The position numbers and the translations under genes are program-made. Source: Lactiplantibacillus mudanjiangensis (GTDB taxonomy: Bacteria > Bacillota > Bacilli > Lactobacillales > Lactobacillaceae). From it: DNA of 64,000 nucleotides. Positions 3,290-57,846 of the stretch are shown piece by piece; the stretch's first letter is position 1; the number at the start of each line of letters is the position of its first letter. Below the pieces are notes generated by a model. It saw only the letters and a list, made by a program, of their open reading frames with translations. It was not told the origin of the DNA and did no database searches. The stretch lies in the NCBI RefSeq assembly GCF_005405385.1, contig NZ_BJDY01000002.1, positions 682,001 through 746,000 of the forward strand. The letters are read 5' to 3'.

Positions 3290-3325
3290 CGTTTTGTTCG
3301 TCCTTATCTGTACAGTCTGCTAATT

Positions 3326-3354
3326 ATTTTACCGAAAACCGAGCTAATTCACAA
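3326..3354 (-). promoter_or_regulatory. Predicted promoter of rnz
   Basis: Read on the minus strand: TTGTGA (-35), 17-bp spacer, TAAAAT (-10), ending about 37 nt before the rnz start. It is divergent from the promoter of the small gene at 3436. Sequence match only. Confidence 0.5.
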
Positions 3355-3364
3355 CGATTAGTCT

Positions 3365-3393
3365 TTGTATTCGTTCCTATGTTATTGTATCAT
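3365..3393 (+). promoter_or_regulatory. Predicted promoter of the 92-residue orphan gene
   Basis: TTGTAT (-35), 17-bp spacer, TATCAT (-10), about 40 nt upstream of the ATG at 3436. Sequence match only. Confidence 0.45.
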
Positions 3394-3435
3394 TTCAGCT
3401 AAAGAAAGTTTGTAACTATTTATCGAGGCGAAAAA

Positions 3436-3714
3436 ATGCGTTTAATTGATTTCAAGCTCTCCACCGTTGATTTAAACCGGCAACTCCCACTCTACTGGGA
3501 GGTCGATGCCGAAATACAACCGATTCAAGACTTACGTTGGCACGACAAACAATTGTTGTTAGTCACTAATCCCAAAACAACCCCGTTAACTTTGGATCAA
3601 TTCTTTGCACGAACCCAACAACTTAATGGGCAAGCGCCATTATTAGTGGCTGCAACGTCGGTAATCCCTATTTTTGGGTACCGGTTGAGTGAACAACGAC
3701 TATTATTAGGTTAA
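3436..3714 (+). CDS. Hypothetical 92-residue protein
   Basis: Not recognised. A compact soluble protein with no signal peptide or membrane helix, with alternating hydrophobic stretches (LLLVTNPKTTPLTL, PLLVAATSVIPIFGYRL) suggesting a small alpha/beta fold. A GAGGCG ribosome binding site lies 5 nt before the ATG and a plausible promoter is upstream, so it looks like a real single-gene unit. It is divergent from rnz and followed by a large non-coding repeat. No function is proposed. Confidence 0.6.
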   Translation: MRLIDFKLSTVDLNRQLPLYWEVDAEIQPIQDLRWHDKQLLLVTNPKTTPLTLDQFFARTQQLNGQAPLLVAATSVIPIFGYRLSEQRLLLG

Positions 3715-3795
3715 GATAGATTAAATGTTTTTTAACAACAATTATTGATATGACGAGCATTCACCGATCGAAGATAGACCAACTTGCCACCTAAC

Positions 3796-4200
3796 GTTCA
3801 CCCACATTGAGCCGGAACGCTGTGGAAGGACCGGTTCAGCCAAAAAGCGGTCTGAACCGTCGTTTTGAACCACCAAGCCTGTATTTCAAAAGCGCCAATC
3901 TCTAAGCGATAAATCGCTAAGAGCTTCCCACGGCTGGGCTCAATGTGAACTTTCGGTTATAGTGATTACTTGAGTGATCGACAAGATAACCGGAGCCAGA
4001 CTGTGATGGCGCCGGCCGTGAAAACATCGTTAGTCCGGATGTTTTTCCCGGGCTTACGATGTGGATGACTTTTGAGACTAGCGATTTGGGCTAGGCTTAA
4101 AAGCGAGGTGGAAGCCCGAATTTCGGCTGGAGCCGGTCCCACAGCTGGCAGAATCACTGACTGACGTAGGTGGTCAAGTACGACTCAAGTCATTACTGGT
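3796..4200. repeat. Structured bipartite intergenic repeat, copy 1 (modules A and B)
   Basis: A non-coding stretch of about 400 bp whose two halves recur in the same order and orientation at 55392-55706. Module A (3804-3946) is closed by pairing of TTGAGCC with GGCTCAA and, inside that, GCTGTGG with CCACGGC. It encloses three hairpins: CGGTTCAG/CTGAACCG, TTTTGAA/TTCAAAA and AGCGAT/ATCGCT. The outer stem extends to GTTCA/TGAAC in this copy. Module B (3985-4200) contains GCCAG-A-CTGTG pairing with CACAGCTGGC, and a 15-bp hairpin at 4024-4062. Differences between copies fall mostly in loops. It could be a structured RNA or a mobile palindromic element; direction of transcription is unknown. Confidence 0.8.
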
Positions 4201-4246
4201 ATATCTTTCAACCTTTACTTAAGTTAGCGTCAAAAGGAGTACAAAC

Positions 4247-5023
4247 ATGAAGAAAACAAGCATCATCTGGGGATTATTGCTGAGTGTTGGCTTACTCAGT
4301 GGCTGTTCGGCCAGTCGGACACCAAGTTATCATAAAATGGCAGCGCAATTTGAAAGCCAGTCGACTAAATCTAAACAAGCACCTAAAGACACCACCAAGG
4401 CCAAAACTAGCACTAGTCATGATAACAGTAACGGGACTGCCACCACACTTAAAGATTTCAAGGCACCTAAAAAGGCTCAACATGATCGACTTTATGTCAA
4501 AAGCGGGCAACTGACTAAGGCTCACCAATATACGTATGATCAGGCCGGAACTAAAGTGAGTTTGACTAAAATCAAACCAACCACGCAATCGTTCACAAAC
4601 GGTCACGTCACCTTTAAATTTACGCAAATTCGGATTTTAAAGAATCAACCAACCACAAAAAACGCGTTAAAAATGGCCAATCAAGCGTTAAATACCGATC
4701 AGATTACAGGCACGTACTACACGCTACAATTACGGTATACCGTCACTAACCATCGTGATCAATCCGTCAACATTGATGGCATCACAGCCGTCAAAACCGA
4801 TCAAGGCCAAACACTCACCCAAGCAACGCAAATGTATGATGCCGGCGCCGGGTTGCGTCTCACCGCCAAAGCCAGCAAAACGGCCTTTACGATGGCACTG
4901 ATTACTAGTAATCCAACCACTGTCAAACAAGTTCAAGTTGAGCTTGGCGGAATCTTTACTCCTAGCGGCAAAACACTCACTAAAGCTAGCGATATGCACA
5001 CCTTAAGGTTACAAAACAACTAA
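4247..5023 (+). CDS. Predicted lipoprotein, DUF4352-like fold suspected
   Basis: 258 residues. The N-terminus (MKKTSIIWGLLLSVG) is a signal peptide ending in the lipobox LLSGC, so the protein should be lipid-anchored at the outer membrane face. A Ser/Thr/Lys-rich linker (about 25-80) leads to a beta-rich domain with segments such as GTYYTLQLRYTVTN that recall the immunoglobulin-like DUF4352 class; that link is tentative. An AAAAGGAG ribosome binding site precedes the ATG. It is transcribed away from the structured repeat and ends at a bidirectional terminator shared with obgE. Function unknown. Confidence 0.8.
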   Translation: MKKTSIIWGLLLSVGLLSGCSASRTPSYHKMAAQFESQSTKSKQAPKDTTKAKTSTSHDNSNGTATTLKDFKAPKKAQHDRLYVKSGQLTKAHQYTYDQAGTKVSLTKIKPTTQSFTNGHVTFKFTQIRILKNQPTTKNALKMANQALNTDQITGTYYTLQLRYTVTNHRDQSVNIDGITAVKTDQGQTLTQATQMYDAGAGLRLTAKASKTAFTMALITSNPTTVKQVQVELGGIFTPSGKTLTKASDMHTLRLQNN

Positions 5024-54407: not shown

Positions 54408-55364
54408 ATGGCGGAATACAACATTATTATTAACGAATTGGCTGGGTCCGGCCAAGGCAAGGTCGTTTGGGAAACGGTTAAACCGTTACTTGAACAACGC
54501 CAAATCGCCTTTGAAGCTCGCGTTTCTAAATACGCGGGTCATACGACCACTTTAGCCACCCAATTCGCACAACAACAAGCAAAAACTCCTGAAACGACCA
54601 CCGTCTTAATGGTTATCGGTGGTGATGGCACACTTAATGAAGCAATTAATGGCTTGATGCAAGCCCATTTGACCACGCCAATGCCCCTTGCCTACTTGCC
54701 TGGCGGCTCCGGCAATGATTTTGCCCGTGGTTTAGGAATGGCGACTGATCCGACATTAGCCTTATCACAAATTTTGAATAACATGCGACCACGCCCTTTA
54801 ACCGTCGGGTGTTATCAAGAAACCTTACGTCATGAGCGGAAATACTTCGTCAACAATGTCGGGATCGGCTTTGATGCCCAAATCGTTGACGATACTAATC
54901 GCAGTAAACAAAAAGGCCGCTTGGGCCGTTGGTCATACTTGAGCAATGCTTTAAAGGCCTTCAATCAACAAGAAGGTTTTGACCTAGCCGTTCATGAAGG
55001 CCGGCAACGTGATAGTTATCGGCATGCGTTTCTATGTACCGTCTCCAACCACCCCTATTTCGGCGGTGGCGTTAAGATCTTACCCACCGCTGATGTTTAC
55101 GATGACCAGCTAGAATTAATCGTCATCGAAGAACCCCATTGGTGGACAGTTTTATGGTTATTTATGTTACTCCTCATGGGCGGTCGGCATTTAAAGTCAC
55201 GCTTCGTCCATCACTACCGAGCTAAACAGCTTCACTTACTGGTTAATTCAGTGGAAATCGGTCAAATGGATGGTCAAACAATCGGGAATCGTAATTACGA
55301 TCTGTACTTCTCGACGATCTCATATCCATTTTGGATTGATACTAGTGTCCAGGGTCAACATTAG
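54408..55364 (+). CDS. Diacylglycerol kinase-family lipid kinase
   Basis: 318 residues. The ATP-binding GGDGTLNEAINGL (about 66-78) and YLPGGSGNDFARGLGM (about 96-111) are typical of the DgkB/YegS/BmrU family. The C-terminal half is the beta-sandwich. It probably phosphorylates diacylglycerol released during lipoteichoic acid synthesis; a sphingosine-kinase-like or other lipid substrate cannot be excluded. GAGGTG precedes the ATG. Confidence 0.88.
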   Translation: MAEYNIIINELAGSGQGKVVWETVKPLLEQRQIAFEARVSKYAGHTTTLATQFAQQQAKTPETTTVLMVIGGDGTLNEAINGLMQAHLTTPMPLAYLPGGSGNDFARGLGMATDPTLALSQILNNMRPRPLTVGCYQETLRHERKYFVNNVGIGFDAQIVDDTNRSKQKGRLGRWSYLSNALKAFNQQEGFDLAVHEGRQRDSYRHAFLCTVSNHPYFGGGVKILPTADVYDDQLELIVIEEPHWWTVLWLFMLLLMGGRHLKSRFVHHYRAKQLHLLVNSVEIGQMDGQTIGNRNYDLYFSTISYPFWIDTSVQGQH

Positions 55365-55391
55365 GTTTACTTTGCCGCCTACCGTTCGTTT

Positions 55392-55706
55392 AGATTGAGC
55401 CGGAACGCTGTGGTCGGACCGGTTCAGCCAAAGAACGGTCTGAACCGTCGTTTTGAACCACCAAGCCCGTGTTTCAAAAGCGCCGAACTCTAAGCGATAA
55501 ATCGCTAAGAGTTTCCACGGCTGGGCTCAATCTGGAAATCTGGACTCACTCTCAACTATGATCCTGATGACTCATCACTAATTAGAATCCACATGATAAC
55601 CAGAGTCAGCCAATGATGGCGCTGGCCGTGGTGACATCGTAAGGTCCAGCAGAATCAACTGGCTAACGTAGGTGACCAATTTAGCATCATGCAAGCCAGT
55701 ACTGGT
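55392..55706. repeat. Structured bipartite intergenic repeat, copy 2 (modules A and B)
   Basis: Second copy of the element at 3796-4200, same orientation. Module A (55392-55533) keeps all five helices: TTGAGCC/GGCTCAA, GCTGTGG/CCACGGC and the three internal hairpins. The pair next to the outer stem is G-C here and C-G in copy 1 (AGATTGAG/CTCAATCT against ACATTGAG/CTCAATGT). Module B (about 55595-55706) is shorter by roughly 105 nt, lacking the segment at 4031-4134 including its 15-bp hairpin arm, while keeping both ends (GATAACC, TGATGGCGC, ACATCGT, GCAGAATCA, ACGTAGGTG, ACTGGTA). Confidence 0.8.
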
Positions 55707-55746
55707 AAGTTTTCCATCATCAACATTAATTTGTCAATTAAGCTAA

Positions 55747-56157: not shown

Positions 56158-57756
56158 TTACTTAACTGTCCCAGCAAAGCTAGGTTTGAAATATGAACTA
56201 ATCGTTTGAACTTGCACGTTTTGACCACTTTCAGGTGCCGCTACATATTGATTGTTTCCTAAGTAGATGGCATCATGATACGTTGATCCACGTGAACCCC
56301 AGAATAAAATATCTCCTGGTTGTGCATCTTTAACAGAATGCACAGAAACATATGCTTCTTGCGCAACCGTGTTATGTGGTAATGAAATGCCAGCTGCATG
56401 CTGGAAGACATAAGCAACTAACCCAGAACAATCCATCCCAGATAAACTACTCCCACCATAAACATAAGGAATATTGGCGCTAGCCAACTTCAACGCTAAG
56501 CCCGTTACCGAACCAGTTGTTAAATTAGCATTGCTGGTCGTCTTGGTTGAGCTACTTGCAGTCGTGGCAGCCGTACTTGTACTACTACTTTGTTGCGTTG
56601 CCGTTGATGCTTGGCTTGCACTGCTACTCGTGCTTTGACTAGTACTCGTGGTTGAACTAGCTGCACTAGTGGCTTTAGTAGCAACCTTTTTAACCGTGGC
56701 TTTGCGCGTTGTCTTCTTAGCAACACTCGTCACACTAGCACTAGTGGCGCTTGGTGTCGTTTGACTAGCCGCACTAGCTTGGCTACTGGTTGAACTAGCA
56801 CTAGTAGCTGTCTTTGTCGTTTTTTTAGCGACACTGCTAGTAGCTTGTGACGTTGACGCAGCTTTAGCTGGTGCTTGACTAGTAGATGCACTTGAAGTGC
56901 TACTGCTACTAGTCGTCGTGCTGCTAGCAGCACTTGGCGTTGTCGTTGATTGATCATCACTGGCTGACGTTGTGGTTGAACTAGCAGCTGCAGTTGAGCT
57001 AGCTTGGCTCGCACTAGCACTTGTCGCAGTAGCTGCCACAATGTGACTCTTCTCAGTCGTGGTGGTGGTGGTGCTACTACTACTTGCTGAACTAGGCGTT
57101 GTCGTTGACGCTTGACTCGTTGAGCTGCTTACCTTACTTGACTGACTAGCTTGACTTGTACTACTTGCACTAGCTGGCGTTGTTGATGCAGCACTAGTTG
57201 AACTAGTCGTAGCTGCCTTAGTTGAAGACGCAGCTGTCACCGTATTTTCAGCAGCATCAGTAGCAGCCGCTTTTTGACTCGTTGTTGTCGACGATGATTT
57301 TGCAGCACTAGTTGTGTTGCTAGTCGTTGTTGACTTAGTGGCCTTAGCGTCACTTGGCAAGATCAATTGTTGACCTGTCACAATAACGTCTCCGCTTAAG
57401 TTATTTAACGTTTGTAACGTATGCACCGAAGTCCCATACTTATCCGCTAAATCCCAAAGCGTATCGCCAGCTTTCACAGTATATGTACCCTGATCTGACG
57501 TTTTGGCTGAAGTTGCATTGACTTGTAATTTCTGACCGACATAGATTAAATCAGTATTCGCGTCAAGGGCTTTCACCTTATTTAAAGTTTCGATGCTCTT
57601 GACGGAAACACCATGTTGCTGAGCGAGGCTCCAAACGGTATCGTTTTGTTTAACAGTAACCGTCGCAGCATTGGCAGCTTGAGCTGTAGCAAACAGCAAA
57701 CCAACGGCACCAACCGTACCGGCTAGGACCTTGCCCGTTGTATGTGCTTGTGACAT
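56158..57756 (-). CDS. LysM and NlpC/P60 peptidoglycan hydrolase
   Basis: 532 residues from the ATG at 57756 (AAAGGAG upstream). Signal peptide (1-31, AQAANA), LysM 1 (about 33-79, VKQNDTVWSLAQQHG), LysM 2 (about 91-134, VKAGDTLWDLADKYG), a Ser/Thr/Ala/Gln low-complexity linker (about 136-415), and a C-terminal NlpC/P60 endopeptidase domain (about 420-532) with Cys443 in MDCSGL and His494 in YHDAIYLG. The position often occupied by a third polar residue reads AAPESG. Likely a secreted gamma-D-glutamyl endopeptidase acting in wall turnover; the linker may be glycosylated. Confidence 0.92.
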   Translation of the reverse strand: MSQAHTTGKVLAGTVGAVGLLFATAQAANAATVTVKQNDTVWSLAQQHGVSVKSIETLNKVKALDANTDLIYVGQKLQVNATSAKTSDQGTYTVKAGDTLWDLADKYGTSVHTLQTLNNLSGDVIVTGQQLILPSDAKATKSTTTSNTTSAAKSSSTTTSQKAAATDAAENTVTAASSTKAATTSSTSAASTTPASASSTSQASQSSKVSSSTSQASTTTPSSASSSSTTTTTTEKSHIVAATATSASASQASSTAAASSTTTSASDDQSTTTPSAASSTTTSSSSTSSASTSQAPAKAASTSQATSSVAKKTTKTATSASSTSSQASAASQTTPSATSASVTSVAKKTTRKATVKKVATKATSAASSTTSTSQSTSSSASQASTATQQSSSTSTAATTASSSTKTTSNANLTTGSVTGLALKLASANIPYVYGGSSLSGMDCSGLVAYVFQHAAGISLPHNTVAQEAYVSVHSVKDAQPGDILFWGSRGSTYHDAIYLGNNQYVAAPESGQNVQVQTISSYFKPSFAGTVK

Positions 57757-57846
57757 TAACTCCACTCCTTTGGCATTAACCGAATATATTTGCCTGAATG
57801 ACATTGAAATTCATAATTTTTAAGAAAAGCTTAACACCTTTTACAA

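Follow-up and report, generated by a model that had tools for sequence, protein, structure and literature searches.

What is the structured sequence that occurs twice, about 51 kb apart, in the 64,000-nt stretch of Lactiplantibacillus mudanjiangensis DNA analysed here (the window)? An initial annotation had proposed a two-copy, bipartite element outside genes, i.e. either an undescribed RNA or a palindromic mobile repeat. The repetition itself is real: the longest direct repeat in the window aligns 3784-3928 with 55372-55516 in the same orientation and at a spacing of 51,588 (145 nt, 89% identity). As annotated, both copies sit between open reading frames (ORFs), with copy 1 beginning beside the stop of the ORF at 3436-3714 and ending ahead of that at 4247-5023, and copy 2 following the ORF at 54408-55364. 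In an nhmmer search with a profile of the family, copy 1 spanned 3716-4219, while copy 2 was split into two pieces, 55343-55643 and 55646-55736. A chance repeat was rejected, given 89% identity over 145 nt and at least 150 copies in the genome (see below), and so was a coding sequence, the longest ORF inside copy 1 measuring 63 amino acids. In the region of copy 1 (3300-4400), a terminator search returned no terminator-like site; the promoter search around this copy gave one promoter-like site versus 1.6 expected, and the two flanking ORFs had no match in Pfam. The lipoprotein gene annotated after one copy and the lipid kinase gene before the other are uninformative as neighbors, because copies occur behind many different genes. 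Elsewhere in the window, a large minus-strand ORF (56158-57804, 548 amino acids) overlaps direct repeat family D2 and, judged by its sequence, looks like a repeat-rich secreted cell-wall protein.

Read from left to right, oriented alignments place a terminus CTAAAGGTTGAAAG ahead of a ~60-nt arm, followed by module A, a center that varies between copies, module B, a second arm and the inverted terminus (Table 1). The full unit in its own genome measures ~545 bp and consists of an inverted pair of ~170-nt multibranch modules, hereafter termed S, around a variable spacer, with a stem CGGTTAT/ATAACCG at the center between them. The second module, annotated as structured, indeed is so, and can be defined more precisely as the fold of module A on the opposite strand, the two sharing the same topology. 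Each S module has an outer helix, interrupted by an internal loop, and up to three hairpins: one bearing GGACCG and AGCCAAAAAGCGGTCT, a second that some relatives lack, and a third whose length varies. The proposed closing helix with three hairpins is the form into which the module A consensus folds, but over a longer stretch of A the minimum-energy consensus closes with another helix and forms the first hairpin differently, so that the exact pairing at the module base may deviate from that form. Differences between copies concentrate in the loops, as had been noted from two copies: across 53 copies, mean identity was 0.890 in loops and 0.955 in stems. Two covariance models were used below, R1 for module A, built from 31 copies, and R2, built from 70 modules of relatives. 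When 33 loci from the own and foreign genomes were scanned with R2, a facing S(+)...S(-) pair was found in 24, a single module in eight, and two S modules in one direction at locus L051. A short S form without the second hairpin (about 137-147 nt) is present in several species, at L057, L058, L059, L065 and other loci. The left terminus of copy 1 has decayed.

Table 1 Features of the two copies of the element in the window, with the evidence for each
Feature	Position	Strand	Evidence
Whole of copy 1, from left arm through module A, center and module B to right arm	3716..4219	+	nhmmer, profile built on 30 copies of the own genome, 546.6 bits, E 7.8e-166
Copy 1 module A, S fold on + strand	3784..3949	+	R1 193.7 bits, R2 143.7 bits; copy belongs to R1 training set
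Copy 1 central hairpin CGGTTAT...ATAACCG, variable spacer	3954..3992	.	Sequence; alignment: stem kept, loop variable
Copy 1 module B, S fold on - strand	4001..4176	-	R2 63.4 bits, E 4.3e-15; missed by R1
Copy 1 right terminal inverted repeat CTTTCAACCTTTAc	4205..4218	-	Sequence, 13/14 to consensus terminus
Copy 2 element, no recognisable left end, module B truncated	55370..55736	+	nhmmer 277.2 + 31.7 bits
Copy 2 module A (S fold)	55372..55536	+	R1 187.9 bits, R2 147.3 bits; in R1 training set
Copy 2 module B remnant, about 110 nt of inside deleted	55603..55676	-	Profile positions 341-452 absent between two nhmmer pieces

Two copies proved to be a large undercount. BLAST with 3784-4215 yielded at least 40 long copies including the query, the others being 83-88% identical (40 scored of 218 candidates). 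With R1, every one of the 150 candidates scored, out of 1,808 in the own genome, was a match (E no higher than 4.4e-15; 149 exceeded 100 bits), and 150 copies of module A are a minimum because three copies of a subfamily, at 112-121 bits, fall outside that list. Loci for 130 of the 150 were used further (30 from the BLAST set and 100 others, the 20 lowest-scoring being left out). At ~545 bp for each of 150 copies, the family would take up ~2.5% of the 3.29 Mb genome.

Related genomes match as well. Within the genus, R1 recognised S in 13 of the 21 genomes, counting the own one; across the family, R2 did so in 78 of 301, distributed over 12 of 40 genera and including Levilactobacillus brevis (nine candidates scored per genome). 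Among 28 chosen genomes, seven of which were picked because they had been positive in the 301-genome scan, R2 matched in 26, among them 19 of the 21 of the genus; in 16 of the 28, at least 94 of 98 scored candidates matched, the units being modules, up to two per element. L. brevis CD0817, an assignment with which the 100% identity of loci L201 and L236 agrees, holds at least 98 S modules. When 295 genomes were sampled across the order, members of the lactobacillus family among them, 11 matched, and all 11 belong to that family. The families of the element are species-specific, multi-copy and mobile. A plasmid or phage origin was rejected, as neither the 72,556 plasmid nor the 50,697 phage records searched, sets that may omit records near the own genome, gave a blastn match at E 1e-5.

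No Rfam 15 family reached its gathering score in the window, and a permissive scan of 3600-4300 produced one chance-level match (E 6.9). At 20 loci of the same genus, Rfam recognised tRNAs and one ribosomal leader only, all away from S; a known Rfam family was thus rejected for the element in the window and at these loci. In a relative of the same genus (L062, 646-748, minus strand), an Rfam S10-Clostridia leader scored 37.1 bits against a gathering score of 35.1. No description of the element was recognised in a literature search outside of which most subscription papers lay, and the annotation as undescribed holds as far as Rfam 15 and the literature searched reach. Apparently, then, this is a very abundant, non-coding, mobile element of the lactobacillus family that seems to be undescribed.

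The ends of the element bear on its mobility. Of the 136 elements that scored more than 100 bits, 37 carry CTAAAGGTTGAAAG at both ends (at least 11 of 14 bases), and the match between their flanks peaks at 8 bp (0.598 versus 0.353 in shuffled controls), being exact in 10 of the 37. Allowing up to two mismatches, the terminus pattern occurs at 156 genome sites, versus five for the reversed control. Twelve of 16 extra loci with termini hold true terminus pairs, at most 549 bp apart in a search that reached 900 bp; they represent a subfamily (L184, L188, L190) and shorter derivatives of 193-460 bp, with exact target duplications in L184, L190 and L195. The remaining four loci, with unpaired termini, are truncated copies or chance occurrences (three truncated copies and one terminus inside a reading frame), and no transposase that would mark an autonomous partner could be named among them. 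No copy examined carries a gene. Three features of MITEs, namely terminal inverted repeats, a target duplication (here of 8 bp) and an interior free of a transposase gene, are present.

Outside the own genome, Levilactobacillus suantsaiihabitans (L238) has the same terminus with an exact 8-bp duplication, atgattta; in relatives' flanks overall, the terminus was seen at 11 or more of 14 bases in just 10 of 87. In two Levilactobacillus species, a locus with the element (L239) is collinear with one without it (L247), and the own genome lacks the element at two sites that hold one in relatives (L046/L112 and L037/L006). The same intergenic site is occupied in two species at L073/L154, whether by a single insertion or separately. 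At a collinear L. brevis/L. suantsaiihabitans site (L236, 3877-4354; L244, 2153-2322), the two species have their strongest S module on opposite sides, as would result from a flip or a double insertion of the element. Inverted termini, 8-bp duplications, at least 150 copies and both orientations argue for a mobile repeat, and its mobility as a MITE-like non-autonomous transposon is well supported. Between the two alternatives of the initial annotation, the mobile palindromic repeat is therefore supported. An RNA of a single sense is not favored, given G-U counts close to those of A-C at mainly Watson-Crick pairs (see below), although over all pairs G-U is about twice as frequent.

Placement by a simple ORF script, successful for 135 of 136 elements, put 60 between convergent, 66 between tandem and nine between divergent genes; for comparison, the window gaps of at least 40 bp are six convergent, 21 tandem and seven divergent. 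Tandem copies were nearer the end of the upstream gene in 58 of 66 cases (median distances 35 versus 134.5 bp), and their orientation relative to the genes was balanced (34 same, 32 opposite). Some copies settle just past a terminator-like hairpin. A position behind genes can result from insertion preference, from selection against harmful sites or from a use at gene ends.

The S fold itself is conserved. In an alignment of 66 distinct modules from the genus, paired cells made up 92.5% and double-change cells numbered 815, with a covariation score of 0.584 versus 0.144 in shuffled alignments (none of 500 as high) and 0.04-0.07 in slid controls. Sixty modules, 23 of them from three other genera, gave 91.1% paired cells, 722 double-change cells and a score of 0.628 versus 0.176; further pair types in this set were not above the shuffles (125 versus 119.8; 63 of 500). 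The alignments were fitted to the structure, which favors structure, and the margin is very large. The evidence that the fold has been kept by paired mutations across several genera is thus very strong, and something in these bacteria may therefore depend on the shape of S.

Whether this shape is one of RNA or of DNA bears on the mismatches that its helices accept, given that RNA helices tolerate G-U but not A-C. In tRNAs of the same loci, used as a control, G-U and A-C numbered 17 and 3 (14 tRNAs, crude coordinates, 30 of 168 cells being 'other'). At those pairs of S that are mainly Watson-Crick (43-44 of 48), G-U/A-C counts in three alignments were 89/63, 69/69 and 72/90; over all 48 modelled pairs they were 168/72, 164/71 and 184/94, i.e. 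about twofold. Nine of the 48 pairs carry most of the G-U cells (129 of 168, 141 of 164 and 152 of 184 in alignments A4, A5 and A6). Within these nine, G-U is the usual form in some, and some may be conserved unpaired bases. Such few fixed G-U positions, or unpaired conserved bases, misfit pairing on both strands.

In 11 orthologous or near-orthologous module pairs, one-sided changes were 13 to G-U and 12 to A-C, next to 22 double Watson-Crick changes, and rare variants (at most two copies) of 43 tandem copies read in the mRNA sense showed no clear excess (G-U 44, A-C 36). Since G-U is no commoner than A-C at most pairs, the counts point to most helices being kept regardless of strand, as DNA or as RNA of both senses. 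One-sided variants of the own genome, read on the + strand, numbered 258 G-U versus 59 A-C in module B and 89 A-C versus 40 G-U in module A, and states found in at least five copies followed suit (B, 12 G-U and 2 A-C; A, 0 G-U and 4 A-C). Each module leans to one sense in the own genome, an asymmetry that the both-strand reading leaves unexplained.

Are the modules also retained at old sites? In 53 own copies with enough arm sequence, core identity to the consensus was 0.903-0.964 (mean 0.937) and correlated weakly with arm identity (r 0.18), the nine copies with arms below 0.65 having cores of 0.917-0.947 and good-arm copies 0.920-0.964; on its own this is no proof, because copies were chosen by core score, which hides decayed cores. 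At five orthologous sites in relatives—a count that excludes L037/L040 (two copies in genome G020) and L239/L247 (element versus empty site)—the spacer was 0.51-0.56 identical and seven of ten modules 0.72-0.98, the other three being poorly kept: one at 0.56, one at 0.47 across an alignment with 87 gaps, and one at 0.74 that carries a deletion of 38 nt. The flanks of these sites (100 nt, partly coding) were 0.66-0.96 identical, one gapped flank apart, and often as well kept as S, so that S contrasts with the spacer more than with the flanks. At L210/L215, S is 98% identical to its ortholog and at most 74% to four sampled paralogous loci and to the partner module, which gene conversion fails to explain. 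At L204/L209, in two genomes of the L. brevis genus, S is 0.77-0.78 identical, one side 0.29-0.41 and the other 0.62-0.69. Retention of modules at several old sites is supported by these data. As to neighbors, the element at L204/L209 lies upstream of an apparent threonyl-tRNA-synthetase leader, and around 1500-2000 of L204, L209, L210 and L215 elements adjoin putative T-box-like leaders, with AGGGTGGAACCACG / GGTGGTACCGCGG before the gene start; these four loci of other genera are two orthologous-site pairs, and the proximity may be chance.

We tentatively favor, at somewhat less than an even chance, a transposable element whose fold acts mainly as DNA and whose retained copies are fixed structural sites. 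The element would probably be moved in trans by a helper transposase. In its single-stranded or supercoiled state, the site would expose hairpin or cruciform arms of S, to which a protein could then bind; new copies would insert behind genes, after which the termini would decay and the S modules stay. Old copies, whose retention is supported, may in this way end up as fixed chromosomal sites, such as transcription-unit boundaries. An action mainly as DNA is proposed because pairing is seemingly kept on both strands at most positions, and old copies are read as fixed structural sites because termini decay while S modules are retained. Counting against this reading are the G-U excess over all pairs, residing mostly in nine of them, which a single-sense RNA would explain, as well as flanks often kept like S, three of ten modules poorly kept and few termini in relatives; the site preference can also be obtained by selection against insertion elsewhere. 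A more specific version, possible though doubtful, would have S as a shape recognised by a protein as folded DNA on either strand, brought to more than 100 sites by transposition and then selected as a chromosomal landmark or boundary in the Lactobacillaceae.

The position of copies directly behind genes (60 of 135 convergent, 58 of 66 tandem near the upstream 3′ end) would also suit a bidirectional 3′ RNA structure, in which read-through RNA from either gene folds at S and stops or protects the transcript in a REP/BIME-like manner. Both strands would then be constrained because both are transcribed, and a constraint on both RNAs would agree with the closeness of G-U to A-C counts at most pairs; yet one sense should dominate in tandem copies, where the variant counts are nearly even (44 and 36), and no terminator-like site surrounds copy 1, and we consider this explanation rather unlikely. 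Both-strand Watson-Crick pairing is also the expected trace of arm-to-arm correction in a purely selfish palindromic transposon devoid of cell function, its pairing kept by template-switch arm correction and gene conversion; species-specific, multi-copy, mobile families agree with this, as does the ratio of 22 double Watson-Crick to 13 G-U and 12 A-C single changes, and active maintenance of inverted repeats has been reported in another system (PMC1803023). However, arm correction preserves pairing, not sequence, yet stems in the own genome keep 95% identity with their consensus and the first hairpin shows almost no variation of its GACCG/CGGTC bases in four genera, and gene conversion fails for L210/L215; selfishness alone thus seems to us an unlikely account. 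Improbable, finally, is a single-strand structured RNA, trans-acting or cis-regulatory, that spread by hitch-hiking on a transposon. The multibranch fold, the strong covariation, a G-U count about twice that of A-C over all modelled pairs and the strand lean of common variants speak for it, but the modules lie on opposite strands and lean to opposite strands in the own genome, tandem genes impose no orientation preference, mainly Watson-Crick pairs show G-U not above A-C in two of three alignments, and at least 150 copies are dispersed. A single-sense RNA is therefore not favored.

How does the element relate to known systems? Like the element, REP/BIME palindromes are dispersed in the intergenic space in hundreds of copies and in both orientations, lying behind genes and often where two genes converge. 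A REP, however, is one short hairpin (~35 nt) and is associated with RAYT transposases, whereas the element pairs two inverted multibranch modules of 170 nt each and makes duplications of 8 bp. Its structure thus differs from the short single palindrome of REPs. The ends of IS200/IS605 elements act as folded single-strand DNA of one strand and insert without target duplication. Both would be mobile elements in which single-strand DNA folds close to the ends, whereas the modules described here are inverted, on opposite strands, and 8-bp duplications occur, which does not agree with a derivative of IS200/IS605. In form the element resembles bacterial MITEs such as QMITE2 of Coxiella, which has a target duplication of 7-9 bp and, as described in the review PMC10969869, is likewise short, gene-less and intergenic, with terminal inverted repeats, target duplication, many copies and strong folding. 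At ~545 bp the element is longer than QMITE2 as described there, and, unlike in MITEs, its interior consists of inverted covarying multibranch modules that are common to several genera and outlast the termini. The MRSC-65-2 motif is also multi-copy and strongly covarying, and its authors state that it may be relevant in DNA form (PMC11109978); as presented there, it is a single long stem from diverse phyla, whereas S is multibranch and belongs to one family in the genomes sampled.

Part of one bacterial family thus shares an element that is abundant, mobile and devoid of genes, and whose pair of inverted modules shows strong covariation. It combines mobility with a strength of covariation normally taken as proof of a functional RNA, a warning that covariation alone does not identify RNA. 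Its G-U and A-C counts are compatible with a fold acting as RNA or as DNA, which makes it a test case for structured DNA versus structured RNA, in a bacterium where this one seemingly unnamed family occupies ~2.5% of the genome (~545 bp times 150 copies).
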